The position numbers and the translations under genes were made by a program. A stretch of DNA of 64,000 nt from positions 62,001 through 126,000 of the forward strand of contig NZ_JAANOZ010000009.1 in assembly GCF_011320115.1 (NCBI RefSeq), given 5' to 3'. This DNA comes from Croceibacterium segetis (GTDB taxonomy: Bacteria > Pseudomonadota > Alphaproteobacteria > Sphingomonadales > Sphingomonadaceae). Position 1 is the stretch's first letter. Every line of letters begins with the position of its first letter. This document shows, piece after piece, positions 25,581-61,250 of this stretch. The notes beneath the pieces are model-generated. The model worked only from the letters and a program-made list of their open reading frames with translations, was not told where the DNA came from and searched no databases.

Positions 25581-25730
25581 TGCGTTCGCTCCGTTCGTTG
25601 ATTCTGTCCGTTCTGGCCGCGCGCCTTTGCTTGCCTGCGCGGCCGAAGTCAATAATGCACTAGTTGACGCGCCCTGAAGGTCAGTTGAATAGCCGCTTCA
25701 GGAAACAGCAGGACGATCGGCGGGAGAGGC

Positions 25731-26383: not shown

Positions 26384-28345
26384 GTGAAAGCAGAACTTCA
26401 GGCAAAATCGATGGATCGCCGCGTCCGCGCGGCTCGTGCTGCGTGGCTCGCGGCGCCGCTCGCCGCCGTGCTGGCAACCGCAGGGATCGCCGCTCCGGCC
26501 GCGGCCAAGTCGGCGTCGACGGCGACCAGCTTCGACTACAAGGGCTGGGACGCCTACGCCGGCGGCGCCGATTCGTCGCAGTATTCCTCGCTCGACCAGG
26601 TCAACACCGGCAACGTGAAGGACCTCCAGGTTGCCTGGACTTTCGAGACCGGCCCCGGGCCCGCGCCGCACTTCAACCCGATTCTGATCGGCGACACGCT
26701 CTACCTGATCGCCGGCGCCCGCCTCGTCGCGCTCGATCCGGTGACCGGCGCGAAGAAGTGGGACAAGGATTACGGCGGCCGCATCGGCGACCGCGGCATG
26801 AACCATTGGCAGAGCGCCGACGGCAAGGACCAGCGGCTCTACTTCCTCAAGGACGGCATGCTGACCGCGGTCAACGCCGCCAACGGCGAGGTGATCACCA
26901 GCTTCGGCACGGGCGGCCAGGTCGACATCCGCACCGGCCTCGAGGCCGACAAGATGCCCGCGCGCCCGCTGATGACCAGCAACCCGGGGCGGATCTACAA
27001 GAACACGATCATCATCTCGCTGCCGGCGGCGGCCTACGATTTCGCTTCGGCGCCGGCGGACATTCACGCCTACGACGTGCTCACCGGCAAGCTGAAATGG
27101 GTGTTCCATACGGTGCCCGAAAAGGGCGAGTTCGGCTACGACACCTGGCCGGCCAAGGATCACGAGAAGTTCGGCGGGGTCCACAACTGGTCGGAATTCA
27201 CGATCGATACCAATACCGGGATCGCCTACATCCCGACCGGGACCGCACGCTACGATTTCTACGGCGGCAACCGCGAGGGGCAGAACCTGTTCGCCAATTC
27301 GCTGCTCGCCCTCGACGCCGAGACCGGCAAGCGCATCTGGCATTACCAGGTGATCCACCACGACCTGTGGGACTTCGACATTCCGCAGTCGCCCAAGCTG
27401 ATGACGATCCACAAGGACGGCAAGGACATCCCCGTCGTCATCCAGGCGACCAAGTTCGGCTACATCTTCGTGTTCGACCGGCGCACCGGCAAACCGGTGT
27501 GGCCGATCAAGGAAACCCCGGTGCCCAAGTCCGACGTGCCCGGCGAAAAGGCCTGGCCGACGCAGCCGATACCGACCTGGCCCGAACCGTTCGCGCGGCA
27601 GGGTGTGTTCACCGAGGACATGATCAACCCGTATATCTCGGACGAGGACAAGGCCAAGCTGCACGCGCTCCTCAAGACCGTGCGCAACGAGGGCCTGTTC
27701 ACGCCGCCGAGCATCCAGGGCACGATTTCGCTGCCCGGCCACAACGGCGGCGCCAACTGGGGCACTTCGGCCGTCGATCCGGTGAAGCATCGTTACTTCG
27801 TGGTCTCGAAGCAGCTGCCGGTGAACGACAAGCTCACCCTTGACGAGCGGCCGGAATCGCAGGCGGCGATGCCCAACGGCGGCGGCGACGTGAAACCCTA
27901 CAAGTCGAACGTCGACTTCATGCTGCAGACCAACGGATTGCCGGCGATCAACCCGCCGTGGTCGCTGATCACCGCGTACGACATGGACACCGGCAAGAAG
28001 ATCTGGTCGCTGCCCAACGGCGAAGTGATGACGCTGGCCGAAAAGGGCATTCACGACACCGGCAGCACCGCGCCGCGCGGCAGCCCGGTGGCGACCGCCG
28101 GCGGCCTGGTGTTCGTCGGCACCTCGTCCGACCGCAAGGTCCGCGCGCGCGACGCGTCGACCGGCAAGGTCCTGTGGGAAAACCAGCTCGACGCCGCAAG
28201 CGAGGGCGCGCCCGCCGTCTACGAAGCGGGCGGCAAGGAATATATCGTCTTCCCGGTCGGGGGCGATGGGCTGTTCCCGCCCAAGCTGGGCCAGCCGAAG
28301 CCCGGCGCCAACCGCTACGTCGCGTTCGCGCTGCCTTCGAAATGA
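26384..28345 (+). CDS. PQQ-dependent dehydrogenase 2 (no haem), head of a 9-kb operon
   Basis: 653 residues. The GTG at 26384 has GGGAG seven bases upstream; the ATG at 26378 is only one base from that site. Signal peptide, then propeller. Catalytic-region motif HHDLWDFDIP near residue 325; NPPWSLITAYD near residue 525 aligns with the CxKPPW motif of the neighbours but lacks its Cys. No haem motif, no Cys pair. Glucose/polyol-dehydrogenase-like clade; substrate unknown. First gene of the run 26384-35530, whose members overlap or are separated by at most 26 bases. Confidence 0.87.
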   Translation: MKAELQAKSMDRRVRAARAAWLAAPLAAVLATAGIAAPAAAKSASTATSFDYKGWDAYAGGADSSQYSSLDQVNTGNVKDLQVAWTFETGPGPAPHFNPILIGDTLYLIAGARLVALDPVTGAKKWDKDYGGRIGDRGMNHWQSADGKDQRLYFLKDGMLTAVNAANGEVITSFGTGGQVDIRTGLEADKMPARPLMTSNPGRIYKNTIIISLPAAAYDFASAPADIHAYDVLTGKLKWVFHTVPEKGEFGYDTWPAKDHEKFGGVHNWSEFTIDTNTGIAYIPTGTARYDFYGGNREGQNLFANSLLALDAETGKRIWHYQVIHHDLWDFDIPQSPKLMTIHKDGKDIPVVIQATKFGYIFVFDRRTGKPVWPIKETPVPKSDVPGEKAWPTQPIPTWPEPFARQGVFTEDMINPYISDEDKAKLHALLKTVRNEGLFTPPSIQGTISLPGHNGGANWGTSAVDPVKHRYFVVSKQLPVNDKLTLDERPESQAAMPNGGGDVKPYKSNVDFMLQTNGLPAINPPWSLITAYDMDTGKKIWSLPNGEVMTLAEKGIHDTGSTAPRGSPVATAGGLVFVGTSSDRKVRARDASTGKVLWENQLDAASEGAPAVYEAGGKEYIVFPVGGDGLFPPKLGQPKPGANRYVAFALPSK

Positions 28346-29382
28346 TCCCCAAGGGCGCCCTTGCCCTGCTGCTGGGGGCCGCCTGCGTCTTCGCGGGCGG
28401 CGCCGCGGCGCTTGCGCAGGACGCGCCAAAGGACCTGACGGCAATCCCCGCGGTGCCGAAGACCTACAAGCCCAAGCTCACCGCCTGGGGCGAGCCCGAC
28501 CTGTCGGGGCTATGGCCGATCGACCACCTCAACATGACGCCGTTCCAGCGCACCGAAGCGCAGGGCAACCGCTACTACCTGACCGACGAGGAATACGCCG
28601 CGCGGCAGAAGCAGATCGACGCGGCAGCCGGGCGCTACGACCAGGAGGCGAAGGACAACAAGCTGGGGATGGGCGCCTGGATGGAGGCCGGCGCGGCCAA
28701 TCGCCGGACCTCGTTCCTGATCGATCCGGCGAATGGCCGCCTGCCCGCCAAGACCGCCGAGGGCGAGCGGCGTTCGAAGCTGATGCGCTCGAGCTATCGC
28801 CCGAACCAGGAGTTCGACTGGACGACCGACTTCGACAGCTGGGACCGCTGCATCACCCGCGGCCTTCCGGCCTCGATGTTCACCATCAACTACAACAACG
28901 GCATCCGCCTGTGGCAGGCCCCCGGGCTGGTCGCGATCCAGCTCGAGATGGTCCATGAAACGCGGATCATCCCGACCGACGGCCGCCCGGGCATTTCGAA
29001 CCGGGTGCAGAACTGGCTCGGCGAAAGCCGCGGCCACTGGGAGAACGGCAACACGCTGGTGGTCGAAACGACCAACTTCAAGCCGGGCCCCTCGGCAACC
29101 AACGTGGGGACCTGGGGCTCGCCCCCGGCCAACGATACGCCGGTGAGCACCGAGGCGAAGATGACCGAGCGCTTCACGATGACCGGGCCCGACACGATCG
29201 TCTACGAGGTGACCTGGAACGATCCGACGATCTTCACGCGCCCGTGGACCGCGCGCCTCGATTGGCGGCGCAAGAGCGACTACCAGTTCTTCGAATATGC
29301 CTGCTGGGAAGGCGACGTACAGATCCGCGGCTACATCAGCTCGTCGCGCGCGCAGCGGGCCAAGGAGCAAGCCCAGAAATGA
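28342..29382 (+). CDS. WGxPD family secreted protein A
   Basis: 346 residues, signal peptide ending ALAQD. I do not recognise a named family, but it is one of five relatives in this window. Shared core: AWGEPDLSGLWPID; DRCITRGLPASM; YNNGIRLWQAPG; VHETRIIPTDGR; WLGESRGHWENGNTLVVETT; ERFTMTGPDTIVYE; and FEYACWEGDVQIRGYIS. Two conserved Cys (in DRC and YAC) could pair. No cofactor motif. ATG overlaps the stop of PQQ dehydrogenase 2 (ATGA), so it is made with that enzyme and may be its periplasmic partner or subunit. Confidence 0.82.
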   Translation: MIPKGALALLLGAACVFAGGAAALAQDAPKDLTAIPAVPKTYKPKLTAWGEPDLSGLWPIDHLNMTPFQRTEAQGNRYYLTDEEYAARQKQIDAAAGRYDQEAKDNKLGMGAWMEAGAANRRTSFLIDPANGRLPAKTAEGERRSKLMRSSYRPNQEFDWTTDFDSWDRCITRGLPASMFTINYNNGIRLWQAPGLVAIQLEMVHETRIIPTDGRPGISNRVQNWLGESRGHWENGNTLVVETTNFKPGPSATNVGTWGSPPANDTPVSTEAKMTERFTMTGPDTIVYEVTWNDPTIFTRPWTARLDWRRKSDYQFFEYACWEGDVQIRGYISSSRAQRAKEQAQK

Positions 29383-30413
29383 CCTTCTGCAAATCGCTCT
29401 GGCTCGCCGGCCTCGCGGCCGCGCTGGTGTTGCCGGCCGCCGCCTCGGCCGAGCAGGACCTGACCAAGCTGCCGCCGGCGCAGAACGGCTTCAAGCCGAA
29501 GACGACAGCCTGGGGCGAACCTGACTTTACCGGCGGCTGGCCGATCGACAGCCTCAACGGCCGCACCCCGCTGCAGCGCGATCCCAAGTTCGGCAACCGT
29601 CAGCTGCTCACCGAGGCCGAGTTCGCCGAGCGCAACGAAATGGTGACCAAGCTCGAGAACCGCTACAACGACGAATCGAGCCAGAACAAGCTCGGCATCG
29701 GCCACTGGGCCGAGGTCGGCCCGGCCAACCGCCGCACCAGCTGGATCACCAGCCCCGCCGACGGACGCCTCCCCGCCTACACGGCCGAAGGCAAGAAGCT
29801 CTCGGACGCGATGCACTCGACCTGGCGGCGCAACCAGGACTTCGACTGGACGAGCGACTTCGACAGCTGGGATCGCTGCGTGACCCGCGGCCTGCCCGCC
29901 TCGATGTTTCCGTTCATGTACAACAACGGGATTCGCATCTTCCAGTCGCCCGGCCTCGTCGCGATTCAGCTCGAGATGATTCACGAGACCCGGCTGATCC
30001 CGACCGACGGCAGGAAGGCGATCCCGCGGCAGATCCACCAGTGGCTCGGCGAGAGCCGCGGCCACTGGGAGAACGGCCAGACGCTGGTGGTCGAGACGAC
30101 CAACTTCCATCCCGGCCCCTCCGCCACCAACATCGGCACCACCGGCTCGCCGCCGGAGAACGACACCCCGGTCAGCACCGACGCCAGGATGGTCGAGCGC
30201 TTCACCATGACCGGGCCCAATTCGATCGCTTACGAGATGACCTGGACCGACCCGGTCGTTTTCACCGCCCCGTGGTCGGCGCGGCTCGATTGGCAGCGCG
30301 ACGACAAGTACGGCATTTTCGAGTACGCTTGCACGGAAGGCGACGTGCAGATCCGCAACTACATCTCAGCATCGCGCGCCGGGCGCGCGCAAAAGAGGGA
30401 GAGCTCCCAATGA
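29379..30413 (+). CDS. WGxPD family secreted protein B
   Basis: 344 residues with signal peptide (ending ASA). Very similar to protein A along its whole length: AWGEPDFTGGWPID, DRCVTRGLPASMFPFMYNNG, WLGESRGHWENGQTLVVETT, ERFTMTGPNSIAYEMTW, FEYACTEGDVQIRNYIS. The high similarity and the ATGA overlap with A point to a tandem duplication. Function unknown; secreted and co-translated with a PQQ enzyme. Confidence 0.82.
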   Translation: MTFCKSLWLAGLAAALVLPAAASAEQDLTKLPPAQNGFKPKTTAWGEPDFTGGWPIDSLNGRTPLQRDPKFGNRQLLTEAEFAERNEMVTKLENRYNDESSQNKLGIGHWAEVGPANRRTSWITSPADGRLPAYTAEGKKLSDAMHSTWRRNQDFDWTSDFDSWDRCVTRGLPASMFPFMYNNGIRIFQSPGLVAIQLEMIHETRLIPTDGRKAIPRQIHQWLGESRGHWENGQTLVVETTNFHPGPSATNIGTTGSPPENDTPVSTDARMVERFTMTGPNSIAYEMTWTDPVVFTAPWSARLDWQRDDKYGIFEYACTEGDVQIRNYISASRAGRAQKRESSQ

Positions 30414-31615
30414 CGTTCCGTAAGACCACTCTTCGCCTGGCGGCGGCCTCGGTGCTTCTCGCCAGCGCCGGCATCGGCACCGCGCTGATGGCGCAGGACA
30501 AGGCTCCTGCCGCCGCGGCCCCGGCGGCCAAGGCGGTTGCCGATCCGACCAAACTCCTGCCGGTCCCGCAGGACTATCACCCGAAGAAGACCCAGTGGGG
30601 CGAGCCCGACTTCACCGGCACCTGGCCGATCGACAACATCGCCAGCATCTTCTTCCAGCGCAACGATCGCTACGGCAACCGCTTCTACCTGACCCAGGAG
30701 GAGCTCGACGCGCGGGAGAAGGAGCGCCAGGGCTCGCTCAAGCGCTACGAGGAAGAAGACAAGCAGGGCAAGATCGGCATGGGCCACTGGGTCGAATCCG
30801 ACGCCTCCGGCGGCCAGACCGCGCTGCTCGTCGATCCGGCCAACGGCAAGCTGCCGGCAATGACGCCGTGGGCGCAGGAGTTGTACAAGAACGGCCGCTC
30901 GAGCTGGAACCAGCATCCCTATGACTGGGTCAGCGACTTCGATACCTGGGACCGCTGCGTCACCCGCGGCTTCCCGGCCTCGATGCTGCCGTTCCGCTAC
31001 AACAACGGCATCCGTGTCAAGCAGTCCCCCGGCTACGTCGTGATCGACCTCGAGATGATCCACGATTCGCGGGTCATCCCGGTGGTGCCGAAGGCCCAGT
31101 GGGCGGCGCTGCAGAAGAAGCGCTGGCCGGCCAACGTGCGCACCTGGATGGGCCAGTCGCTCGGCTATTGGGAAGACGACAACACACTGGTCATCGAAAC
31201 GACCAACCTGAAGACCGGCGATAGCGTGATCGGCAACGGTTACGACCGCGGCCCCTCGCCGCTCAACATGGCGACCATGGGCGTGCCGCCGAACAACACC
31301 ATCCCGACCAGCGACCAGGCCAAAGTGGTCGAGCGGCTGACGATGACCGGCCCGAACTCGATCATGTACGAGATGACCTACTCGGATCCGAAGGTCTTCA
31401 CCGCGCCGTTCACCGCCCGTCTGCCGTGGACCCGCAACGAGGATTACGGCTTCTACGAGTACGCCTGCTTCGAAGGCGACGTGCAGGTCCGCAACTACAT
31501 CAACTCCTCTCGCGCCCAGCGCGGGCTCAAGACCAGCGAGATCGGCGACCCGGATCGGGTGGGCGCCGAGCCGGTCGCGGCCGCGAAACCCGCCTCCGAA
31601 GCGGTCGGGGGCTGA
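30410..31615 (+). CDS. WGxPD family secreted protein C
   Basis: 401 residues, third tandem member, starting at an ATG that overlaps the stop of B. Longer because of an insertion near residues 225-265 (VPKAQWAALQKKRWPANVR) and a C-terminal extension rich in Ala. Core retained: QWGEPDFTGTWPID, DRCVTRGFPASMLPFRYNNG, ERLTMTGPNSIMYEMTY, YEYACFEGDVQVRNYINSS. The SRGHWE box is changed to QSLGYWEDDNTLVIETT. More diverged than A and B are from each other, so it is the older copy or has a different ligand. Confidence 0.82.
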   Translation: MTFRKTTLRLAAASVLLASAGIGTALMAQDKAPAAAAPAAKAVADPTKLLPVPQDYHPKKTQWGEPDFTGTWPIDNIASIFFQRNDRYGNRFYLTQEELDAREKERQGSLKRYEEEDKQGKIGMGHWVESDASGGQTALLVDPANGKLPAMTPWAQELYKNGRSSWNQHPYDWVSDFDTWDRCVTRGFPASMLPFRYNNGIRVKQSPGYVVIDLEMIHDSRVIPVVPKAQWAALQKKRWPANVRTWMGQSLGYWEDDNTLVIETTNLKTGDSVIGNGYDRGPSPLNMATMGVPPNNTIPTSDQAKVVERLTMTGPNSIMYEMTYSDPKVFTAPFTARLPWTRNEDYGFYEYACFEGDVQVRNYINSSRAQRGLKTSEIGDPDRVGAEPVAAAKPASEAVGG

Positions 31616-31617
31616 GG

Positions 31618-33279
31618 ATGAACGCACCTCGCTTGCGGGCAACTGCGGCGGCGCTGGCTCTCGCAGCCGGCGCCACTGCCCTCGGCGGCAGCCCGGCGCT
31701 CGGCGCCGGCACCGCCGCCATGCTGCAGCCGGTCAGGACCCAGCAGGGCATGGTCCAGGGCACTACCGGCGAAGCGCCGGGCGTGACGGTGTTCAGGGGC
31801 ATACCCTTCGCCGCGGCACCGGTCGGCGAACTGCGCTTCCAGCCCGCTGCGCCGCCCAAGGCGTGGACCGGCGTGCGCGACGCGAGCAAGTGGGGCGACA
31901 CCTGCATCCAGCCTTCGGGCAAGACCCGGCCGATCGGCGTCAACCAGGCGCTCGACATGCCGGATTCGCCCAAGGCGAGCGAGGACTGCCTCAACCTCAA
32001 CGTGTGGACCCCGGCCAGGAAGGCCGGCGCCAAGCTGCCGGTAATGGTGTGGTTCTACGGCGGCGCCTACGCCGAAGGCGGCGGCTCGATGCCGTTCGCC
32101 AACGGCGCCAATCTCGCCACCAAGGGCGTGATCATCGTTTCGATGAATTACCGCGTCGGCCCGTTCGGCTTCCTCTCGACGCCCGAGCTGACCGCCTCTT
32201 CGCCGCATCACGCCTCGGGCAACCAGGCGCTGTCGGATTCGATCGCCGCGCTCAAGTGGGTCAAGGCCAACATCGCCGCGTTCGGCGGTGACCCCAACAA
32301 CGTGACGATCTTCGGCCAGTCTGCCGGCGCGTGCATCACCGCCGCGCTGGTCGGGTCGCCCGTCGCGAAGGGCCTGTTCCAGAAGGCGATCTCGGAGAGC
32401 GGCGCCTGGGCCGGCCTCACCGCCGCCAAGATGGCGACGCGCGAGGAGATGGAAAAGCGCAGCACCGAGGCGCTCGACAAGCTCGGCGTGCACAGCCTCG
32501 CCGAGCTGCAGGCGCTGCCGGCCGACCAGGTGGCCAAGCTCGGTCGCGCGCAAGGCATCATCGTCGACGGTTGGATCGTGCCCGAGGACGAGAGCATCAC
32601 TTTCGCGCAAGGGCGGCAGAACAAGGTTGCCGTGCTGCTCGGCTCGAACGGCAACGAAGGTGGCAGCTTCGGCCCTCCGGGCGGCGCCAACGTGACCGCG
32701 GAGGCGTGGAAGGCCGGTGCGGCGCAGCGCTGGAAGGACCTCGCCGATCTCGGCCTCAAGGCCTACCCGGCGGCGACGGATGCCGAGGCGAAAGCGGCCT
32801 CCTCGCGCCCGTTCACCGACGGCATCGCCTGGTTCATGCATCTCTACGCGACCGACCAGGCCAAGGTCGGCCAGCCGGCCTACCTCTACCAGTTCGTCCG
32901 CACCCCGGCCTCGGCGCCGGGCAAGACGAACGGCGGGGCGAGCCACGCGTCGGAGCTCGCCTACGTGTTCAACAACCTCGACAAGCCGCGCGAGGTGCCG
33001 GACAACAGCGACCCGGCGGTGGTCAGCAAGAGCGCGCCCGACATCAAGCTCGCCGACCAGGTCTCGAGCTACTGGACCAACTTCGCCAAGACCGGCAATC
33101 CCAACGGCAAGGGGCTGCCCAATTGGCCGCAGGTGACCAGGATGGCCCGAAACCAGGCGATGCTGCTCGACGTCGATCCCCACGTGGGTGATACGATGAC
33201 GCCAGAGCAGGTTGCGCTGTACGACGCGCTTTACGATCGCGACGTGGCCAAGCCGCTCGGGATCGCCAAGTGGAAGTAA
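31618..33279 (+). CDS. Secreted type-B carboxylesterase
   Basis: 553 residues with signal peptide. Type-B signatures: FRGIPFAAAPVGELRF, SEDCLNLNVWTP, YGGAYAEGG oxyanion loop, and nucleophile FGQSAGA near residue 240; catalytic His expected in GASHASELAYVF near residue 445. Two Cys (DTC, EDC) match the usual N-terminal disulfide. Hydrolyses esters in the periplasm. Two-base gap to protein C upstream, 26 bases to PQQ dehydrogenase 3 downstream: same operon. Its placement suggests that the oxidised substrate carries an ester, or that oxidation makes one. Confidence 0.9.
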   Translation: MNAPRLRATAAALALAAGATALGGSPALGAGTAAMLQPVRTQQGMVQGTTGEAPGVTVFRGIPFAAAPVGELRFQPAAPPKAWTGVRDASKWGDTCIQPSGKTRPIGVNQALDMPDSPKASEDCLNLNVWTPARKAGAKLPVMVWFYGGAYAEGGGSMPFANGANLATKGVIIVSMNYRVGPFGFLSTPELTASSPHHASGNQALSDSIAALKWVKANIAAFGGDPNNVTIFGQSAGACITAALVGSPVAKGLFQKAISESGAWAGLTAAKMATREEMEKRSTEALDKLGVHSLAELQALPADQVAKLGRAQGIIVDGWIVPEDESITFAQGRQNKVAVLLGSNGNEGGSFGPPGGANVTAEAWKAGAAQRWKDLADLGLKAYPAATDAEAKAASSRPFTDGIAWFMHLYATDQAKVGQPAYLYQFVRTPASAPGKTNGGASHASELAYVFNNLDKPREVPDNSDPAVVSKSAPDIKLADQVSSYWTNFAKTGNPNGKGLPNWPQVTRMARNQAMLLDVDPHVGDTMTPEQVALYDALYDRDVAKPLGIAKWK

Positions 33280-33305
33280 GCTGAATTTAGAGGGGAGGAG
33301 AAGGT

Positions 33306-35423
33306 ATGGCGCTGTCTGACAAGGGGCGGCGCTGGCCGCTCCTCCTTTCCGTCGCGGGCCTGGTCGGGCTCGGCGGCGCGGCACTGGCGCAGGGCGCCGG
33401 CGGCTTCGACGCGCAAGTCGAGATCGGGCGCGCGGCCTACGTCCAGAACTGCGCTTCCTGCCACGGCGAGAAGCTGGTGGCCGGGCAGTTCGCGCCTGCG
33501 CTGAAGGGGCCCGAGTTCCTCGGCCACTGGGGCGGCGCGCCTCTCGGCACCCTTTACGACTATATCCACACCTCGATGCCGCCGGGGAACGCCGGGACCC
33601 TGCCGGAAGACACTTATGCTTCCATCGCGGCGCTGATTCTCAAGGAGAACGGCGGTGCCGCCGGACGGGGGATCAAGGCCGGCGAGATGGACGGCATCGC
33701 ACTGCCCGCCGCCCCAGCCGGAGCACGCGGAGAGAGCGGAGTCGGCGGCCTTTCGACGCGGCTCTACCCGCTGCCGCCGGGGCCGAAGATTCCCGACCGT
33801 TTCGCGAACTTCAAGTCGGTGACCGAAGCCGAGCTCGACAATCCCGCGCCCGAGGACTGGCCCGCCTGGCGGCGCAGCCACCTCGGCCTCGGCTACTCGC
33901 CGCTCAAGCAGATCGACACCTCCAACGTCGGCAACCTCACGATCGCCTGGGCGCAAGCGCTGCCGCCGGGGATCAACATGAACGAGCCGCTGGTGCGCAA
34001 CGGCGTGCTCTACGTGTTCGGCTTCGGCGACAACGTCTTCGCTTTCGACGCCGCCAGCGGCCGTCAGCTGTGGCGTTACCAGCGCAAGCTGCCGCAAGGC
34101 GCGCAGCTCAATTCGCGCAAGACGATCGCGCTCTATGGCGACAAGCTCTACACCGCGACCTCGGACAATCACATGGTCGCGCTCGACGCCAGAACGGGCC
34201 GTCCCGTGTGGGATGTCGTGCTGACCGATCGCCCCGGCATGCGCATCCCCGGCGGTCCGCTCGCCGCCGACGGCGTCATCATGCAGGGGTTTGCGAATAA
34301 CACCGCTGGCGGCGGCCTGATCGTCGCGGTCGATGCCGATACGGGCGCAAAGCTGTGGCAGTTCGAGACGGCCGCCAAACCCGGACAGGTCGGCGGCGAC
34401 ACCTGGAACGGCCAGCCTGGCGACACCCGCAAGGGGGGCTCGGTTTGGACCTCGGGCAGCTACGATCCGGTCAACCACCTCGCGCTGTGGGGCGTCGGCA
34501 ACACCTACGACACCGGCCCGCTGCGCGACCTCAAGCCGGGGATGAACAACGACGCGCTGTTCACCGAAAGCACGCTGGCCTTCGAGCCGCGGACCGGCAA
34601 GCTCGTGTGGTTCTACCAGCACAATCGCAACGACCAGTTCGATCTCGACTGGGTGTTCGACCGGGTCATCGGCACGCTCGATGTCGGCGGCAAGCCCCAG
34701 CGGGTCGTGATCACCGGCGGCAAGAGCGGGCTGTTCGATGCGCTCGACGCGAAGACCGGCAAGTACCTCAAGACGGTCGACATGGGGTTGCAGGACTACA
34801 TCGACCGGATCGACCCGGTGACGGGCGACAAGCACGTCAAACCGGAGAAGACCCCCGGACGCGACAAGGGCCCGGTCTACATGTGCCCGCACGGCGGCGG
34901 CGGCCGCAACTGGAACCCGACCTCGTACCTGCAGTCGACGCAGACCCTGTTCGTCGCCGCCCGCGACGTTTGCACGGACCTGACGCCGGCCACCGGTCCG
35001 GGGTTCCTCAGCACCGGCGTCAACGCGGTCTATGCCCCGCAGCCCGACGGCGACAGCAACTACGGCGTGCTCCAGGCGATCGACATGCGCAGCGGCAAGG
35101 TCTTGTGGGAAACGCGCCGCCGGCAGACGCCCGACATGGGCGTGCTGACCACCGCCGGCGGCTTGTTGTTCACCGGCTGGATGGACCGCCACTTCGTCGC
35201 CTACGACCAGAGGACCGGCAAGGAGCTGTGGAGCAGCGGCGTCACCGGCGTGCCCAACGCCTCGGCGATCACCTACTCGGTCGACGGCAAGCAGTACGTC
35301 GCGATGGTTACCGGCGCCGGCAATCCGCTGTCGTCAGGCATTCCCGACGTGATCCCCGAGACGCAGATGCCGAGCGTCAACAGCTCGTCGGTCTACGTCT
35401 TCGCGCTGCCTGACCGGAAATGA
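33306..35423 (+). CDS. PQQ-dependent dehydrogenase 3 with N-terminal haem c domain
   Basis: 705 residues. Signal peptide, then a cytochrome c domain (CASCH near residue 49, Met ligand probably in TSMPPGN near residue 90), then the PQQ propeller from about residue 175. Haem in front of the propeller is the reverse of type II quinohaemoprotein alcohol dehydrogenases and recalls polyvinyl-alcohol dehydrogenases of sphingomonads. The usual catalytic segment reads HNRNDQFDLDWVFD near residue 440, unlike the HHDLWD of the haem-less neighbours. No vicinal Cys pair. Substrate unknown; a polymer or large alcohol is a possibility given the adjacent esterase. Confidence 0.87.
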   Translation: MALSDKGRRWPLLLSVAGLVGLGGAALAQGAGGFDAQVEIGRAAYVQNCASCHGEKLVAGQFAPALKGPEFLGHWGGAPLGTLYDYIHTSMPPGNAGTLPEDTYASIAALILKENGGAAGRGIKAGEMDGIALPAAPAGARGESGVGGLSTRLYPLPPGPKIPDRFANFKSVTEAELDNPAPEDWPAWRRSHLGLGYSPLKQIDTSNVGNLTIAWAQALPPGINMNEPLVRNGVLYVFGFGDNVFAFDAASGRQLWRYQRKLPQGAQLNSRKTIALYGDKLYTATSDNHMVALDARTGRPVWDVVLTDRPGMRIPGGPLAADGVIMQGFANNTAGGGLIVAVDADTGAKLWQFETAAKPGQVGGDTWNGQPGDTRKGGSVWTSGSYDPVNHLALWGVGNTYDTGPLRDLKPGMNNDALFTESTLAFEPRTGKLVWFYQHNRNDQFDLDWVFDRVIGTLDVGGKPQRVVITGGKSGLFDALDAKTGKYLKTVDMGLQDYIDRIDPVTGDKHVKPEKTPGRDKGPVYMCPHGGGGRNWNPTSYLQSTQTLFVAARDVCTDLTPATGPGFLSTGVNAVYAPQPDGDSNYGVLQAIDMRSGKVLWETRRRQTPDMGVLTTAGGLLFTGWMDRHFVAYDQRTGKELWSSGVTGVPNASAITYSVDGKQYVAMVTGAGNPLSSGIPDVIPETQMPSVNSSSVYVFALPDRK

Positions 35424-35530
35424 TCGACCCCACAGACTTTCTGCCCCTCAGGGTTCAGTTGATCCTGCTTGGCTTGGCGGTGATCCTGGTTTTGGCGATC
35501 GCCGTTCTGGTCGAAATCACGGGAAGCTGA
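35420..35530 (+). CDS. 36-residue single-pass membrane peptide
   Basis: ATG overlaps the stop of PQQ dehydrogenase 3 (ATGA). Sequence begins MIDPTDFLPLRVQ, followed by a strong hydrophobic helix (LILLGLAVILVLAIAVLV) and EITGS. Translational coupling and the single helix make it a plausible membrane tether or small subunit for the quinohaemoprotein. A terminator follows 12 bases after the stop. Confidence 0.6.
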   Translation: MIDPTDFLPLRVQLILLGLAVILVLAIAVLVEITGS

Positions 35531-35542
35531 CGGGGTGAAAGA

Positions 35543-35570
35543 AAAAGGCCGCCTCGAGGGGCGGCCTTTT
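35543..35570. terminator. Bidirectional terminator between the PQQ operon and the DUF6644 pair
   Basis: GGCCGCC / GGCGGCC stem flanked by AAAAA on the left and TTTT on the right, so it can work in both directions. Ends the plus operon (26384-35530) and the minus operon (36644-35592). Confidence 0.85.
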
Positions 35571-35591
35571 CCTTGTCGAAGTGCTTCGGAC

Positions 35592-36104
35592 TCAGCTGCC
35601 GAAGATGCCGAGCGTGAAGCCGATCGCGCGGCCGAAGAACACCACCGCGAGCCAGAACACGATCGACAGCGCCGCGGCGACCTTGACCGCCACCGGCATC
35701 GACGCATCGCGATCCCAGTGCTCGACCGTGCGCCAGGTCATGAAGTGGAAGTACATCATGTTGAGCCCGGCGAGCGCCATCATGCCCATCTTCCAGAGGA
35801 AGTAGGGATTGCCGACGTAGCTCGAGGCCTTGCTGATGAACAGCAGGCCACCCGTGATCGCCGCCAGCACGAACGCACCCCAGGTCCACGGCAGCGTATC
35901 CTTGGCAACGGCGGTGACGGCGAACTTGTTCGAGGTCCAGCCGAGCATCCGCAGGTCGACGACGAAGATCGTCCCGAGCACGGAAACCAGCGCGATGACG
36001 TGCAGCGTCTCGAGAGTCGGGAACATCCAGGTCGATTCGGCGATCGTCGTGCCGAGGCTCGAGAACTCGATCCGCTCCCAGATATTGGTTGGTGTAGGAT
36101 ACAT
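35592..36104 (-). CDS. DUF6644-like four-helix membrane protein 1
   Basis: 170 residues, about four transmembrane helices. His35 lies in the first helix (TLETLHVIALV) and His120 in the third (MMYFHFMTW), flanked by Arg and Trp. It aligns without gaps, at a constant offset of 12, with the neighbour encoded just upstream, including both His, NPxFxxKM and GxLLxIS. Paired His on membrane helices could ligate haem b, giving a quinone-linked electron step. Gap of 12 bases to the upstream partner: same operon. Confidence 0.75.
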   Translation of the reverse strand: MYPTPTNIWERIEFSSLGTTIAESTWMFPTLETLHVIALVSVLGTIFVVDLRMLGWTSNKFAVTAVAKDTLPWTWGAFVLAAITGGLLFISKASSYVGNPYFLWKMGMMALAGLNMMYFHFMTWRTVEHWDRDASMPVAVKVAAALSIVFWLAVVFFGRAIGFTLGIFGS

Positions 36105-36116
36105 CGAAATTCCCTC

Positions 36117-36644
36117 TCAAACCGGCGCGTAGGCGATCCAGCGACCGCCCAGCATGATGAGGCACCACAGGATGATGATGAGCACGGCCCCGGTCTTGAT
36201 CACCGGACCGGCCTGGCCGCCCGCGGCGAGCCGCCGCATGACCCGGCCGTGGAACCACAGGCTGGCGAGGATCGCGAGCACCACGCCCACCATCTTGACC
36301 CAGAACACCGGGTTGATGAGGTCGCGGATCGGCTCCGAGATGACCAGCAGCGACCCGCTGACGACAAGCATTACCAGCGACCACCAGATCCAGCGGATGT
36401 AGCGGCGCTCGGTCTCGGCCATCGTGCGCTCGGTGCCGGCGAGGCTGAAAAGCCGCAGGCTGACCATCAGGATCGAGCCGAACGCCGAGGCGATCGACAG
36501 GATGTGGATGCACTGCAGGATCGGGATCGCCCAGAAGTGGGTCTGCAGCCACAGGCTCACCGATGTGTCGGAGAGCCACAACGTCAGCTCGACGAGCGGC
36601 GTCGTGCGCAGCCATTCGGTGAAGTGGTATAACAAGTCGCCCAT
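36117..36644 (-). CDS. DUF6644-like four-helix membrane protein 2
   Basis: 175 residues with the same plan as its downstream partner: an amphipathic N-terminal segment, then four helices, His47 (QCIHILSIA) and His132 (SLWFHGRVM). His-to-His distance is 85 residues in both proteins. GSLLVIS and NPVFWVKM match GGLLFIS and NPYFLWKM of the partner. First gene of the two-gene operon. A homologous pair suggests a heterodimer. Electron transfer to or from the c haems of the island is inferred. Confidence 0.75.
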   Translation of the reverse strand: MGDLLYHFTEWLRTTPLVELTLWLSDTSVSLWLQTHFWAIPILQCIHILSIASAFGSILMVSLRLFSLAGTERTMAETERRYIRWIWWSLVMLVVSGSLLVISEPIRDLINPVFWVKMVGVVLAILASLWFHGRVMRRLAAGGQAGPVIKTGAVLIIILWCLIMLGGRWIAYAPV

Positions 36645-36821
36645 CAGATACTCTCTTCCCCTGTCCCTTGCCGACCTCGTCCGGTCGTTCGGGGACCGTG
36701 ACCAAAAGCGGCAGCCTTGCCGAGTTAATTACCGTAACGCCGCCAGTTACAGCCTTGGCGACGCTCTCCTCAGTGGCGAAACGCGCTAGCGGCGGAAAGC
36801 GCCCCCGCCAAGTCCAAAATT

Positions 36822-36830
36822 GACAATGTC
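36822..36830. promoter_or_regulatory. GACAATGTC palindromic motif, copy 2
   Basis: GACAATGTCCGGATTGAGAA in the 250-base gap upstream of the DUF6644 pair. The copy at 39977 shares GACAATGTCCGG and, after a one-base gap, TT and AGAA. On the minus strand the TTGTCA inside it could also be a -35 element. No other gene signal was seen in the gap 36645-36894. Confidence 0.35.
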
Positions 36831-36894
36831 CGGATTGAGAATGCGCGGATTTCGCTTTGTCGGGGGGTAGCTCCCCCACGAACAGGGCTTTTGC

Positions 36895-37923
36895 CTAGTT
36901 TTTCCGCTCCGCAGCTTCGCGCGCCGCAACCGCCGCGGCACGCTGCGCGGCGAATGCCGGATTGGTCGCCTTGATATAGGCGGTGATCAGCGTGTTTCCT
37001 TCGTGGCAGGCGTATTCGAAACTCTTGTAATTATCGTTGCGGGTCCACGGATAGGAGATCGTGAAGGGTCCGGTCAGCACTACCGGATCCTCCACATGCG
37101 CCTCGTACTGGATCGTGTTCGGCCCGGTCGGGGTGAAGCGTTCGGTCACGTGCAGCGCCGGGCTGGTCGGCACCGGCTCGTTGCTCGGACCGACGATGAC
37201 CATCGGCGATTCGCCGTTGAAGTTGGTCGTTTCGACCACCAGCGTCTGGCCTTCCCAGTGACCGCGCGAATCGCCGAGCCAGGCCTTCATCGTGCCGGGC
37301 ATTGCCGGCCGCCGGTCGAGCGGGATTATCCGCGTTTCGTGAATCAGCTCGAGGTTGAGCACGACATAGCCCGGCGCCTGAAAGATCTGCACCCCGTTGT
37401 TGTAGGGGAACGGAATCATCGAGGCCGGCATCCCGCGGGTGATGCAGCGATCGAGCGAGTTGAAGTCCTTGACGCTCGAGAACAGGTCGTTGTCCCAGCT
37501 CGAGTGGGAGGCCTTGGCCATCGTCTGGCCGCGCGGCGTCAGCGGCGGGATGCGGCCGTTCGCCGGCTCCATGATCAGCGATGTCTGCTTGAGTACGGTG
37601 CCGTACTCGAACCAATGACCGGCGCCGAGTTTGTTCGACTGGTCTTCCTGGTCGGCGCCCTGGCCCCGCGTTTGCGCGGCCTTGAGCGCGGCGGCGTATT
37701 CCGCGTCGGTGAGCCAGGCCTGGTTGCCGTATTTCGGATCGCGCTGCATTCGCGTGTTGCCGACCTCGAGCGGCCACATGCCGCGCAGATCGGGATCGCC
37801 CCATTCGGTGCGCGGGGCCTTGTAGGTGCTCGGCTGGGGAGCCTTTTGAGCCGCTGCGGGCATGGCGGCGGCGAGCGACAGGACCGAAACGACGACGGCG
37901 AACCGGGCGATGTGGCGGGTCAT
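36895..37923 (-). CDS. WGxPD family secreted protein D
   Basis: 342 residues, signal peptide ending AAAQ. Fourth member of the family: EWGDPDLRGMWPLE, DRCITRGMPASMIPFPYNNG, GYVVLNLELIHETRIIPLDRR, WLGDSRGHWEGQTLVVETTNF, ERFTPTGPNTIQYE, FEYACHEGN. Ends in an Ala/Arg helix. Transcribed divergently from PQQ dehydrogenase 4, with 131 bases between the starts holding an inverted repeat. GGGAG precedes the ATG. Again tied by position to a PQQ enzyme. Confidence 0.82.
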   Translation of the reverse strand: MTRHIARFAVVVSVLSLAAAMPAAAQKAPQPSTYKAPRTEWGDPDLRGMWPLEVGNTRMQRDPKYGNQAWLTDAEYAAALKAAQTRGQGADQEDQSNKLGAGHWFEYGTVLKQTSLIMEPANGRIPPLTPRGQTMAKASHSSWDNDLFSSVKDFNSLDRCITRGMPASMIPFPYNNGVQIFQAPGYVVLNLELIHETRIIPLDRRPAMPGTMKAWLGDSRGHWEGQTLVVETTNFNGESPMVIVGPSNEPVPTSPALHVTERFTPTGPNTIQYEAHVEDPVVLTGPFTISYPWTRNDNYKSFEYACHEGNTLITAYIKATNPAFAAQRAAAVAAREAAERKN

Positions 37924-37958
37924 GAGCTTCTCCCAATCGCAATATGGCTACTGCAGGC

Positions 37959-37972
37959 GACAAACCGTTGTC
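37959..37972. promoter_or_regulatory. Inverted repeat in a divergent promoter region
   Basis: GACAA-ACCG-TTGTC between the start codons of WGxPD protein D (minus) and PQQ dehydrogenase 4 (plus). The half-site GACAA is also the left half of the GACAATGTC motifs. A second close match, GGACAAAGTC, follows at about 37997. Candidate regulator site for the divergent pair. Confidence 0.35.
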
Positions 37973-38054
37973 AAAGCCGCCGATCCTGCCTAAACAGGAC
38001 AAAGTCAATCGAACGCGGCTGGAAGCTGCGCACTGTCTGGAAGAGGGGAACGGA

Positions 38055-39974
38055 ATGCGCAGCGCGGGACGCTTGGGACTTGCGGCACTCATGACTTTCG
38101 CCGCGCCCGTGGCGGTTCTCGCGCAGGACGCGGTCCCGGCCGGAGACTGGCTGACGATCAACCGCGATCTAGCCGCGACTCGCTATTCCCCGCTGGACGA
38201 AATCAACCGCGCGAACGTCGCCCAGCTGGCGCCGAAGTGGTCGTACGCGATGAAGGGCTTCAACACCGCGGCGCCCCTGGTGGTCGGCGGGACGATGTAT
38301 TTCCCGGTCGCCAACCGGGTCGTCGCGCTCGATGCCGACACCGGCACCGAGCTGTGGGTCTACGAGGAGCCGAAGAAGGCCGATCAGGGCCCCGGCAGCG
38401 GTGGCGGCGGCGGGATGTCCGGCCGCGGACTCGGCTACTGGCCGGGAGACGGGACGCTCGGCCCGCGCCTGCTGGTCGTGGCCGGCAAGCAGATCCTCGC
38501 CATCGACGCCGCGACGGGCAAGCTCGCGACCGGCTTCGGCAATGGCGGCAGGGTCGACATCGACCCCGCCTATGGCGGCACCCCGACGATCTACAAGAAC
38601 GTCGCGATCATCGGCGCGGCGACGCTCGAGAACCCGCAAGGGGTTCCCGGCAACCCGCGCGCCTACGACGTGCGCACCGGGCAGAAGGTGTGGGAATTCC
38701 AGACCGTGCCGCACCCGGGCCAGCTCGGCGGCGACACCTGGGGCAACGACGGCTGGAAGAACCGCTCGGGCGCCAACATGTGGGCCGCCTCCGCGCCGCT
38801 CGATGCGCAGCGCGGCATCGTCTACCTGCCGATAAGCGGGCCGGCGGCGAACTATTGGGGCGGCGACCGTCCCGGGTCCGGGCTGTTCGGGAACTCGATC
38901 GTCGCGGTCGACGCGCTGACGGGCAAGTACTTGTGGCACTTCCAGACCACCCACCACGACTTGTGGGACACGGACATGCCCAACGGCGGCCTGCTGTTCA
39001 ACGCCAGGCGCAACGGCAAGAGCGAGCCGGTGATCGCCCAGGTGCCGAAGACCGGCCTGTTCTACGAACTCGACCGGGTTACCGGCAAGCCGGCGCTGCC
39101 GATCGATGAAGTGGCCGTGCCGAAGGGCGATGTTCCGGGCGAATACTACAGTCCGACCCAGCCGGTCCCGCGGGTCACCCCGCCGCTGGCGCGCACCTCG
39201 TTCACCTATGACGACATGGTCACCGCCGAAGACACCACGCCCGAACACGCGGCCGCGTGCCGCGCGATGTGGGACAAGGCCGGCGGCTACCTCAATTACG
39301 GCCTGTTCACGCCGTTCTTCTTCCACCGCGACGGCGCACCGCCGAAGTCGACGATCCAGCTCCCCGGCGGCACCGGCGGGGTCAACTGGGGCGGCATGGC
39401 GGTGAACCCCAATACCGGCGTGGTCTTCGCCAACGTGCAGAACACGTCGCTGGTCGGCTGGGTCGAGCGCAAGAACACGACGAAGAGCTACAGCTTCGAC
39501 GCCAACGACACCAACCAGCCCTATGACCGGGCGAGCGTCGACGGGAAGGGTCCGTTCTTCTCTTTCTCCGCTCCGATCTCGGGCAAGTACGACGAGAAGA
39601 CCGGCCGCCCCGACGGCCCGACCGCGCCGTGCTACAAGCCGCCGTGGAGCACGCTGACCGCGGTCGATGCCAACACCGGCAAGGTCAAGTGGGCGGTTCC
39701 GCTCGGGCTCAACGAGGCTCTGCCGAAGGGCAAGCAGCTCACCGGCAACTCGGGCAACGCCGGGCCGACCGTCACCGCCGGCGGGCTGGTCTTCGTCGGC
39801 GCAACCAATGACAAGCGCTTCCGCGCGTTCGATGCCGATACCGGCCGCGAGCTGTGGGAGGCGCAGCTGAGCAACAGCGCCAATGCCAACCCGATCAGCT
39901 ATCGCGGTCGCAGCGGCAAGCAATACGTAGCGATCAATGCAGGCGGCACGATTGTCGCCTATGCCGTTCGCTGA
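38055..39974 (+). CDS. PQQ-dependent dehydrogenase 4 (no haem)
   Basis: 639 residues; the ATG at 38055 has GAGGGGAA before it and opens a good signal peptide (ending VLAQ). Propeller blades with DAxTGK/DTG-W repeats. HHDLWDTDMP near residue 300 and PCYKPPWSTLTAVD near residue 525 resemble enzyme 1, to which it seems closest. No haem motif, no Cys pair. Gly-rich insertion GSGGGGGMSGRG near residue 115. Downstream come WGxPD-like protein E and the DUF6152 gene in the same direction, probably one transcript. Confidence 0.87.
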   Translation: MRSAGRLGLAALMTFAAPVAVLAQDAVPAGDWLTINRDLAATRYSPLDEINRANVAQLAPKWSYAMKGFNTAAPLVVGGTMYFPVANRVVALDADTGTELWVYEEPKKADQGPGSGGGGGMSGRGLGYWPGDGTLGPRLLVVAGKQILAIDAATGKLATGFGNGGRVDIDPAYGGTPTIYKNVAIIGAATLENPQGVPGNPRAYDVRTGQKVWEFQTVPHPGQLGGDTWGNDGWKNRSGANMWAASAPLDAQRGIVYLPISGPAANYWGGDRPGSGLFGNSIVAVDALTGKYLWHFQTTHHDLWDTDMPNGGLLFNARRNGKSEPVIAQVPKTGLFYELDRVTGKPALPIDEVAVPKGDVPGEYYSPTQPVPRVTPPLARTSFTYDDMVTAEDTTPEHAAACRAMWDKAGGYLNYGLFTPFFFHRDGAPPKSTIQLPGGTGGVNWGGMAVNPNTGVVFANVQNTSLVGWVERKNTTKSYSFDANDTNQPYDRASVDGKGPFFSFSAPISGKYDEKTGRPDGPTAPCYKPPWSTLTAVDANTGKVKWAVPLGLNEALPKGKQLTGNSGNAGPTVTAGGLVFVGATNDKRFRAFDADTGRELWEAQLSNSANANPISYRGRSGKQYVAINAGGTIVAYAVR

Positions 39975-39976
39975 TA

Positions 39977-39985
39977 GACAATGTC
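39977..39985. promoter_or_regulatory. GACAATGTC palindromic motif, copy 3
   Basis: GACAATGTCCGGTTCAGAA just after the stop of PQQ dehydrogenase 4 and 27 bases before WGxPD-like protein E. Nearly the same extended sequence as the copy at 36822. Confidence 0.35.
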
Positions 39986-40011
39986 CGGTTCAGAAAAGAG
40001 GGAATCTTGGG

Positions 40012-40893
40012 ATGGGAAATTTCGGTAAACTGGCGGTCGCCGCGCTCCTGGTCACCGGGACCAGCTTCGTCGCGCAGGAGGCTTCGGCCAAGGCCGCCGC
40101 GAAAGCTCCGGCACGGGCGTCGACCGCGGCTCCGGCCACCATCGGCGGCCACCCGAACATCAACGGCGTGTGGCAGGCGCTGAGCGGCGCCGACTTCGGT
40201 CTCGAGCCGCATTCGGCGCAGACCTCGCCCGGCCCGCAGAGCGAGCGCGAGCTCGGCGCCATCGCGGCGATCCCGGCGAGCCTCGGCGTCGTCGAAGGCG
40301 GCACGATTCCCTATCTCGCCGAGGCGAAGGCGGTGCGCGACGCGAACGCCAAGGCCGGCCCGATGAAGGACCCCGAGGCGAACTGCTATCTCCCGGGCAT
40401 TCCGCGCGCGACTTACGTCACCAACATGCCGTTCCAGATCATCCAGGGCGGCGGCGACATCCTGATGGCTTACGAGTACGACTCGGCCAACCGCGTGATC
40501 GCGATGGGCCCGGTCGGCATTCCGCCGATCGATACCTGGATGGGTACCTCCTACGGCAAGTGGGAAGGCAACACGCTGGTGGTCACCACCCTCGCCCAGA
40601 ACGGCGAGACCTGGCTCGACCGCGCCGGCAACTACCTGACCAATAACGCGACGGTGGTCGAGCGGTTCACGCCGAAGGGCAAGGACCACATGGACTACGA
40701 AGTGACGATCCAGGATCCGACCGTCTATTCGAAGCCGTGGAAGATCAAGATGCCGCTGTACCGGCGCGTCGAAGACAACGCCCAGATCCTCGAGTTCAAA
40801 TGCGTCCCGTTCGCCGAGATGCACCTCTACGGCGATCTGTACGACACGATGGACGCGGCGGCCAAGGCGCGCCTCGGCCTCGATAAGAAGTGA
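40012..40893 (+). CDS. WGxPD-like family secreted protein E (divergent)
   Basis: 293 residues with signal peptide (ending EASAK). A shorter, divergent relative: GHPNINGVWQ in place of WGxPDxxGxW, CYLPGIPRATY in place of RCxTRGxPASM, IIQGGGDILMAYEYD, then SYGKWEGNTLVVTT, VVERFTPKGKDHMDYEVTIQDPTVYSKPW. The order of boxes is kept, which supports a common fold. GAGGGAA lies before the ATG. Followed by the DUF6152 gene after 51 bases. Function unknown. Confidence 0.78.
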   Translation: MGNFGKLAVAALLVTGTSFVAQEASAKAAAKAPARASTAAPATIGGHPNINGVWQALSGADFGLEPHSAQTSPGPQSERELGAIAAIPASLGVVEGGTIPYLAEAKAVRDANAKAGPMKDPEANCYLPGIPRATYVTNMPFQIIQGGGDILMAYEYDSANRVIAMGPVGIPPIDTWMGTSYGKWEGNTLVVTTLAQNGETWLDRAGNYLTNNATVVERFTPKGKDHMDYEVTIQDPTVYSKPWKIKMPLYRRVEDNAQILEFKCVPFAEMHLYGDLYDTMDAAAKARLGLDKK

Positions 40894-40944: not shown

Positions 40945-41364
40945 ATGCGTATCAAGACCTGGCACAAAGCCGCCATCGGCGCCGTGCTGGCTGGCGGCAT
41001 GGCGGGCGCTGCTTTCGCCCACCATTCGTTTGCGGCCGAATTCGACCGCGACAAGCCGATCAAGCTGCAAGGCGAGGTGGTCAAGTTCGAGTGGGTCAAC
41101 CCCCACTCGTGGATCCACATCAAGACCGGCGACGGCAAGGTCTGGCGCGTCGAGGGCGGTGCCCCGAGCGCGCTGCTGCGCCGCGGCTGGAACAGAAACT
41201 CGCTGCCCGCCGGCACCAAGATCATCGTCCAGGCCTTCCAGGCCCGCGACGGCGACACCCGTGCCAGCGCCGCCGAAATCAGCTTCCCGGGCGGCCGTTC
41301 GCTGTCGCTCGGCAACCCGACGACCGAAGCGGTCATCGCCGCCCAGAAACGCGCCGGGGAGTAA
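40945..41364 (+). CDS. DUF6152 protein with His-His mature N-terminus
   Basis: 139 residues. Signal peptide with a clean AFA cleavage site (residues 23-25); the mature protein then begins HHSFAAEFD. Other conserved-looking His are H54 and H58 in NPHSWIHIK. A GAPSALLRRGWNRNSLPAGTKI segment and a small beta-barrel-like pattern complete the family. Function unknown. An N-terminal His next to internal His recalls copper sites of CopC or lytic monooxygenases; that is inference. GGAG lies nine bases or so before the ATG. Last gene before a 217-base gap (41365-41581) in which I see no gene. Confidence 0.82.
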   Translation: MRIKTWHKAAIGAVLAGGMAGAAFAHHSFAAEFDRDKPIKLQGEVVKFEWVNPHSWIHIKTGDGKVWRVEGGAPSALLRRGWNRNSLPAGTKIIVQAFQARDGDTRASAAEISFPGGRSLSLGNPTTEAVIAAQKRAGE

Positions 41365-42460: not shown

Positions 42461-42473
42461 GGGCCGCCGCGGA

Positions 42474-43205: not shown

Positions 43206-43217
43206 GGAGAGAGAAGA

Positions 43218-43892: not shown

Positions 43893-43920
43893 TCACCACC
43901 TTACCGGAGAGGACCAACCC

Positions 43921-49131: not shown

Positions 49132-49135
49132 GCGG

Positions 49136-49903: not shown

Positions 49904-49905
49904 GA

Positions 49906-52249: not shown

Positions 52250-52424
52250 CGCCCTCCCTCAGGCCGTCCGCCCTCTCCCAAGGGCGCGCGCACCATAGGC
52301 AGCGCTTTCCTCGCGCGAAAGACCGCGGCGGCAAAAAATTGTCACGGTCGTTACTTTGCCTTCACAACCGCGCTGCGAGGCGGCAAGGTCCCCGCAAGCT
52401 CGGGAAGAAGGGCGGAGGGATTGG

Positions 52425-61177: not shown

Positions 61178-61250
61178 CGAGCAGCAGCCTTCGCCTGCGG
61201 CTAATTTGGACGACTACCCCTGGGCGTTTTGTGCCCCCGCCCACTAGCGG

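Follow-up and report, generated by a model that had tools for sequence, protein, structure and literature searches.

Among the accessory proteins of pyrroloquinoline quinone (PQQ) dehydrogenases, MxaJ and XoxJ belong to the solute-binding-protein family and MxaI is a subunit of ∼8–10 kDa. Ligand-binding barrels of the lipocalin type form another well-described group, recognized by a GxW motif in the first strand, against which a basic residue following the last strand packs. Here we analyzed a 64,000-nucleotide stretch of the Croceibacterium segetis genome (contig NZ_JAANOZ010000009.1, positions 62,001 to 126,000; hereafter the window), in which five genes, A to E, lie among PQQ dehydrogenase genes. 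An earlier reading of this DNA from its letters (the sequence-only reading) had described their products as a secreted family, marked by a WGxPD motif and built around these dehydrogenases. We find that A–E belong to one superfamily of apparently exported proteins predicted to form barrels, so far unnamed, which has a long type (A–D) and a short type (E). The link to PQQ dehydrogenases is real in the window but does not define the family, and the regular neighbour of the short type is a DUF6152 gene, not a PQQ enzyme.

Long and short members of one superfamily

Gene A (28342..29382, + strand) begins inside the stop codon of PQQ dehydrogenase 2 (26411..28345, +, alternative start 26378; PF01011, E 6.1e-173), its ATG overlapping the TGA as ATGA, and B (29379..30413, +) and C (30410..31615, +) are each ATGA-coupled to the gene before them, making A–C overlapping tandem genes. 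D (36895..37923, minus strand) is divergent from PQQ dehydrogenase 4 (38091..39974, +, alternative start 37944; gene call and PF01011, E 2.9e-160), and E (40012..40893, +) lies downstream of that enzyme. All five open frames have signal-peptide-like starts, judged by eye, which suggests export. In these points, and in finding no assigned function for the family, the sequence-only reading was right: a scan of A–E against Pfam and NCBIfam matched no family in either at E values up to 1. The assignments of A–D rest on their open frames and alignment, with an AlphaFold2 model of A and a tree placement of D, and that of E on alignment and a profile built from A–D.

The five proteins had also been said to share a series of ordered sequence boxes. 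This holds for A and B (8/8 literal boxes each), D (7/8) and C (5/8), and it fails for E (0/8); the WGxPDxxGxW, RCxTRGxPASM and YNNG boxes are all present in each of A–D and all missing from E. Identity to A falls from 63–64% for B through 50–51% for C and 47% for D to 26% for E. Yet the profile made from A–D alone finds E with 67.1 bits (E 7e-20), most strongly over residues 135–265; the best of 1000 shuffles of E reached an E value of 0.51. Membership of the superfamily was defined by a profile match over the barrel and the presence of both Cys together with Arg182 and Glu250 (mature-A numbering here and below); A–D have these residues and E retains all four. Judged by these comparisons, E is a true but distant relative of A–D, homologous over the barrel, and because it combines a clear profile match and the same conserved residues with none of the boxes, the superfamily divides into two types. 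Long members (A–D, 342–401 amino acids) have a helical N-terminal part followed by the barrel, and the short or E-type (E, 293 amino acids) has the same barrel behind a different N-terminal part. For counting, the types were split by a convenience cut in bit score, set at 300 in the genomes of the window's family and in the loci described below and at 200 in the acidobacterial genome G193. In G193, G194, G195 and G197–G200 we also saw frames of 503–671 amino acids with two short barrel matches in tandem, which suggests fused double-barrel proteins.

The sequence-only reading had proposed structure prediction as a check. An AlphaFold2 model of mature A, made with 130 aligned sequences, is confident (mean predicted local distance difference test score, pLDDT, 94.3; predicted template-modelling score 0.92) and shows an antiparallel β-barrel with added helices, with eight strands of at least five residues between positions 163 and 283. 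Its structural matches are weak. The top Foldseek match in the PDB is CRABP-II (E 7.7e-4, target TM-score 0.47), and all but two of the 50 matches listed (48) are CRABP, CRBP, FABP or myelin P2; VIA-align gives a best Z of 7.7, for NanoLuc, with the FABP, CRABP and CRBP rows at 6.8–7.4 and aligned lengths of 109–129 residues over the 50 matches listed. We give no weight to the fact that other folds do not appear in these two lists. On this model, a calycin-type barrel, similar to fatty-acid-binding proteins and lipocalins, is likely for A. The WGxPDxxGxW box would then be the first barrel strand carrying GxW, an assignment based on strand positions in the model and on general knowledge of lipocalins. 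Across 118 long sequences, GxW is represented by Gly30 in 113 and Trp32 in 101, and the candidate basic residue after the last strand by Arg284 in 109.

In 130 aligned rows (118 long and 12 E-type), Cys144 is present in 130 and Cys295 in 129, the exception ending at a contig edge. That 129 of 130 rows hold both Cys fits a disulfide in an exported protein, and the pair is probably structural. The polar residues Arg182 and Glu250 are invariant over all 130 rows, long and E-type. Within the long type, Arg143, Arg182, Gln166 and Glu250 occur in 118/118 rows and Asp137, Asn159 and Asn160 in 117/118, while E-type rows do not retain Arg143 and Met153 from the RCxTRGxPASM box. Of the 118 long members, 79 carry the His of the HETR box and 39 have a deletion of one residue at that place; 0/12 E-type rows carry it, and a catalytic role for a conserved His was rejected on these counts. 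The conserved Cys, Trp, Arg and His had been taken as a sign of ligand binding or catalysis; a ligand-binding fold is plausible from the model, the His drops out of that argument, and the Cys pair looks structural.

The overlapping genes A–C had further suggested that the family is being amplified in this genome. This idea of recent local amplification is rejected by a midpoint-rooted FastTree of 116 long members, including A–D themselves, drawn from the collected loci (L numbers) described below. A clusters with L029 and copies of L030–L033; B groups with L041 and with L030–L032, L035, L043, L045 and others; and C groups with L041 and L030–L032, with a support of 0.61 at the last join. Since A, B and C thus fall into three clades, each shared with other genera, the paralogues predate these genera. 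In the same tree, D falls together with L041, L088 (Steroidobacteraceae), L097 (Nevskiaceae), L101 (Gammaproteobacteria), L104 (Terriglobia) and L079 (Bryobacterales). The D-type gene adjoins an E-type gene and a DUF6152 gene in L079, L088, L101 and L104, and in L097, which is cut by the contig, DUF6152 lies ∼4 kb from the D-type gene. From these relatives, D, E and DUF6152 of the window appear to form a widespread core, in which the window has dehydrogenase 4 between D and E.

Distribution and genomic neighbours

Among 79 genomes of the window's family, the superfamily was found in 8, counting the window's own (G000), with 6–19 matches each; one of the eight, G190, has short members alone. 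In the window's genome the family is scattered: profile searches gave 19 or 20 matches spread over 12 contigs, two of the 20 being pieces of E. A class-wide sample, which was too sparse for use, held the superfamily in 2 of 115 genomes, one of them G000. We therefore also collected 77 loci, which come from the best 80 of at least 572 relatives found by scanning genome contigs and are the loci most like A–E. By their titles, they belong to Sphingomonadales, other Alphaproteobacteria, Gammaproteobacteria and Acidobacteriota. In 8 of the 77, the long member scored below 300 bits or was uncalled, and such members are absent from the tree.

In the eight family genomes, each distance was taken between the midpoint of a member and the start coordinate given for the neighbouring match on the same contig. 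PF01011 rows that were second fragments of one frame or weak BamB-like rows were left out, in G193 too, as were seven DUF6152 rows from genomes without the barrel family. DUF6152 lies within 2 kb of 49 of the 52 short members. Matches to DUF6152 above 60 bits occur in exactly the eight genomes that hold the superfamily, and seven further genomes of the family have a single weak match each, at 40–47 bits. The same pairing is seen in G193 (the genome of L104), where a family member lies within 2 kb of 24 of the 25 DUF6152 genes listed out of 49, and where, among the matches listed, 8 of the 13 long members have a DUF6152 gene within 2 kb. Short members stand beside DUF6152 on plasmids of Novosphingobium, Croceibacterium and Sphingobium as well. 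In the window, the DUF6152 gene (40945..41364, +; PF19649, E 9.7e-31) directly follows E and encodes a protein that appears to be exported. An AlphaFold model from 15 rows (pLDDT 82.5) has an oligonucleotide/oligosaccharide-binding (OB)-fold-like shape; its structural matches, with a best E value of 1.8e-3, include lysyl-tRNA synthetases and IF-1 chains, of which we take the matched parts to be the OB domains. A search against PDB sequences gave chance-level matches (best E 0.3). The DUF6152 sequence reads Ala-His-His-Ser at the likely signal-peptidase site in all 14 rows that have the N-terminus, placing a His-His pair at the probable cleavage point, and an Asn-Pro-His is conserved too. Given this regular pairing, DUF6152 may be a dedicated partner of the E-type barrel.

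The association with PQQ dehydrogenases is of a different kind. In the eight family genomes, 17 of 38 long members have a PF01011 match within 5 kb and 21 have none, while for short members the counts are 7 with and 45 without; some members without a nearby PQQ gene sit on short contigs that hold none. With at most 22 PQQ matches, each covering 10 kb, in genomes of 2.8–4.1 Mb, PQQ vicinity makes up less than 8% of the genome, so that the figure for long members is a real excess. Within any one genome, however, these members sit in a single cluster (on two contigs in G127). The gene maps of the loci show this cluster as a conserved operon: a PQQ dehydrogenase, a cytochrome c, often a cytochrome c′-like gene and a HupE/UreJ gene, a second PQQ dehydrogenase, one to five long members (five in series in L053), a carboxylesterase, often another PQQ dehydrogenase, and two DUF6644 genes. 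A PQQ gene directly adjoins a long member in 28 of 77 loci, and a carboxylesterase does so in 27, of which two (L066 and L088) lack a PQQ gene in the stretch examined. In total, 41 of the 77 loci lack a PQQ gene in that stretch (40 by a frame-based count). The PQQ profile used for these loci was home-made and included one dehydrogenase sequence that was out of frame; the PF01011 searches are independent of it.

Outside the sphingomonads, G193 was the sole lineage tested in full. Here a PQQ gene is found within 5 kb of 10 of the 128 members, against at most 7.1% (∼9) expected, and within 10 kb of 26, against at most 14.3% (∼18); among the 13 long members, none is within 5 kb and one is within 10 kb. 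There is thus no PQQ adjacency at 5 kb in this genome, and at 10 kb a slight one at most. A family built around PQQ dehydrogenases, as had been proposed together with a profile search for enrichment beside PQQ genes, is therefore seen as clear clustering within one conserved sphingomonad operon and is not supported as what defines the family, adjacency at 5 kb being at chance level in G193. The refuting condition set by the sequence-only reading, a lack of enrichment next to PQQ genes, thus has a split outcome.

Copy number was examined in 17 genomes. Nine non-sphingomonad genomes behind the loci, which were picked for carrying the family and are uninformative on its frequency, hold at least 15–133 barrel matches, 13–64 DUF6152 matches and 29–68 PQQ matches, the last including fragments. 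Each of three acidobacterial genomes has more than 120 barrel profile matches. Barrel counts are lower bounds, as 26 candidates were scored in the family genomes and 150 in the non-sphingomonad genomes. Barrel copy number correlates with DUF6152 at rho 0.93 and with PQQ matches at rho 0.92, values in which ancestry and genome size are uncontrolled.

The window's copy of the operon begins with PQQ dehydrogenase 1 (22109..24049, +; PF01011, E 5.1e-159) and a cytochrome c (25149..25652, minus strand; PF13442, E 2.7e-16) that recurs in the corresponding cluster of other genomes. There follow on the + strand dehydrogenase 2, A, B, C, a carboxylesterase and dehydrogenase 3; the minus strand then carries two DUF6644 genes and D, and the + strand after that dehydrogenase 4, E and DUF6152. 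The apparently exported carboxylesterase (31618..33279, +; PF00135, E 8.2e-106), a frequent neighbour of the tandem run, is of the general type B, its matches including p-nitrobenzyl esterase (7.6e-75) and fumonisin esterase (8e-71), and dehydrogenase 2 is closest to quinohaemoprotein alcohol dehydrogenases; neither set of relatives names a substrate. Dehydrogenase 3 (33306..35423, +; PF13442 and PF01011) is a quinohaemoprotein with a cytochrome c domain. The DUF6644 membrane proteins lie at 35592..36104 (minus strand; PF20349, E 3.9e-7) and 36117..36644 (minus strand; PF20349, E 4.7e-8), the latter with weak matches to CopD (E 1.1e-4) and UPF0093 (E 0.0044), both under the Pfam cut-offs.

Other genes around long members vary between loci. 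A HupE/UreJ_2 protein (for example at L041:4600-5304) is encoded no more than four genes from a long member in 19 loci, and the cluster as found in the window lacks its gene. A TonB-dependent receptor, confirmed with Pfam for one representative, is found within four genes of a long member in L038, L044, L047, L048 and L097, which would fit the uptake of a large or poorly soluble substrate. Long members of L087, L090–L093, L100 and L103 form a separate clade with no PQQ gene in the locus; we take their neighbours to be genes for ribosomal proteins S12 and S7 and elongation factor G, as which they read. In the window, the genes directly after DUF6152 (41582-44916, +) encode a class II aldolase, a HAD hydrolase, Dak2 and Dak1 in series, which is a dihydroxyacetone-kinase-type unit. 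Three adjacent genes at 49136-51308 (minus strand) belong to one blast cluster, the last being SnoaL_4/NTF2-like with a signal-peptide-like start, and sit between PQQ dehydrogenases at 47053-49173 and 52356-54557. At 57815-63427, a DNA methylase with a ParB-like N-terminal part, a frame reading like a phage large terminase and a serine recombinase look like a prophage or mobile-element remnant.

Proposed ligand carriage and its alternatives

The reading we favour, at a probability of roughly 45%, is that A–E are periplasmic carriers or presenters of hydrophobic ligands in catabolic operons, one superfamily in two architectures whose paralogues serve different ligands. A barrel protein would bind a hydrophobic substrate or intermediate in its pocket in the periplasm, and the bound ligand would be presented to, or buffered for, local enzymes; in the window these would be the carboxylesterase and the PQQ dehydrogenases, and some other lineages would use different ones. 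Such a division of ligands among copies fits both the old paralogues kept side by side and the more than 100 copies in some Acidobacteriota. In favour of this reading are the confident barrel model of A with its matches to retinoid- and fatty-acid-binding proteins, the polar residues and Cys shared by both types, the pairing of E-type genes with DUF6152, the carboxylesterase that adjoins a long member in 27 loci, and the copy-number correlations. Homology, the barrel model, the Cys pair and gene linkage are results of computation, whereas export, the pocket, the ligand and the part played by DUF6152 are inferred. Several results weigh against this view. The Foldseek and VIA-align scores (E 7.7e-4 and TM-score 0.47; Z below 8) may mean just a common arrangement, as VIA-align itself warns, and the family profile found only chance-level matches among PDB sequences (best E 0.6). 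The Trp of GxW, found in 101 of 118 long members, is Phe or Tyr in the other 17. In the eight family genomes, DUF6152 lies within 2 kb of none of the 38 long members, so that the pairing there applies to the E-type alone, and barrel copy numbers follow PQQ genes as well as they follow DUF6152.

Foremost among the alternatives, though in our view unlikely, is that A–D are enzymes, for instance a calycin-type barrel acting as a hydratase, isomerase or lyase without a cofactor. In its favour, long members have many polar residues under strict conservation, with Arg143, Arg182, Gln166 and Glu250 unchanged throughout, the top VIA-align rows are the barrel enzyme NanoLuc, and the operon context looks catabolic. 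But the HETR His is missing from a third of long members (39/118) and from every E-type row, Arg143 and Met153 are likewise not kept in the E-type, and up to five paralogues in series, as in L053, fit ligand variety equally well. Somewhat more doubtful is that the family consists of accessory subunits or partners specific to PQQ dehydrogenases, acting for example in substrate delivery or electron-acceptor docking. The ATGA coupling of A to dehydrogenase 2, the 28 loci with a PQQ gene directly beside a long member, the 17 of 38 long members near PF01011, the copy-number rho of 0.92 and the slight excess in G193 at 10 kb (26/128 against at most ∼18) all point that way. Such specificity is difficult to reconcile with the 41 loci that have no PQQ gene, with the 45 of 52 E-type members that have none in 5 kb, and with G193, where 10/128 members (at most 7.1% expected) and 0/13 long members fall within 5 kb. 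Moreover, L066 (Euryhalocaulis) and L088 keep a long member, an esterase, an E-type gene and DUF6152 without PQQ in the stretch examined, the genome of L088 having PQQ genes at other places.

Least probable of the three is a secreted oxidative system centred on a metal, perhaps copper, in which the His-His N-terminus of DUF6152 and a CopD/HemJ-like DUF6644 partner act on substrate presented by the barrels. The Ala-His-His-Ser in 14/14 DUF6152 rows with the Asn-Pro-His, the weak CopD (1.1e-4) and UPF0093 (0.0044) matches of one DUF6644 protein, the 23 of 77 loci that have an esterase beside a long member and DUF6644 in the locus, and the presence of DUF6644 near DUF6152 on sphingomonad plasmids are consistent with it. 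Nonetheless, the DUF6152 model resembles OB folds and not the CopC fold, the CopD and UPF0093 matches stay under the Pfam cut-offs, and DUF6644 is within 5 kb of just 2 of 45 short members scoring below 150 bits. A bolder version, which we also regard as a long shot, is a two-protein secreted unit of an E-type barrel, which would set specificity, and an OB-fold DUF6152 with a His-His metal site, with DUF6644 as membrane electron partner; it would be a periplasmic oxidation or uptake system of a new kind, to which sphingomonads have added an esterase and PQQ enzymes. If true, genomes of Acidobacteriota and some Gammaproteobacteria would each hold dozens of such units.

If instead the favoured reading of A–E as ligand carriers is true, it would contribute to explaining the ways in which bacteria of the environment deal, outside the cytoplasm, with many substrates of low solubility. 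For finding a first ligand, the Erythrobacteraceae operon with its esterase and dehydrogenases is a tractable place, and DUF6152, as the regular neighbour of the E-type, points to the right pair for experiments. The superfamily has no Pfam or NCBIfam model that covers A–E, and reaches more than 120 matches per genome in three acidobacteria.

Comparison with known systems

In our literature search, DUF6152, DUF6644, PF19649 and PF20349 were named in no paper found, and a term search of the main text of PMC3174227, which concerns Solibacter paralogues, found no search term there. Within the literature searched, the family, its two architectures and its pairing with DUF6152 appear undescribed, while the fold class is already known. 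DUF6152 (PF19649) is itself a separate, apparently exported protein, a neighbour encoded directly after E and not a member of the family.

MxaJ, XoxJ and MxaI are exported proteins encoded beside PQQ dehydrogenases, and in this they resemble the apparently exported A–E. They differ in that A–E are 293–401 amino acids long with no Pfam match at E up to 1, and in that the present family is not confined to PQQ loci, since 21/38 long and 45/52 short members of the family genomes and 118/128 members in G193 have no PQQ gene within 5 kb. Compared with fatty-acid- and retinoid-binding proteins and lipocalins, A is larger (∼320 residues against ∼135), with a helical N-terminal part and a C-terminal helix, and A–E carry export signals as judged by eye, an invariant Cys pair and no detectable sequence relation to these barrels. 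What A shares with them is its predicted antiparallel barrel, the GxW segment ahead of it and its best, though weak, structural matches.

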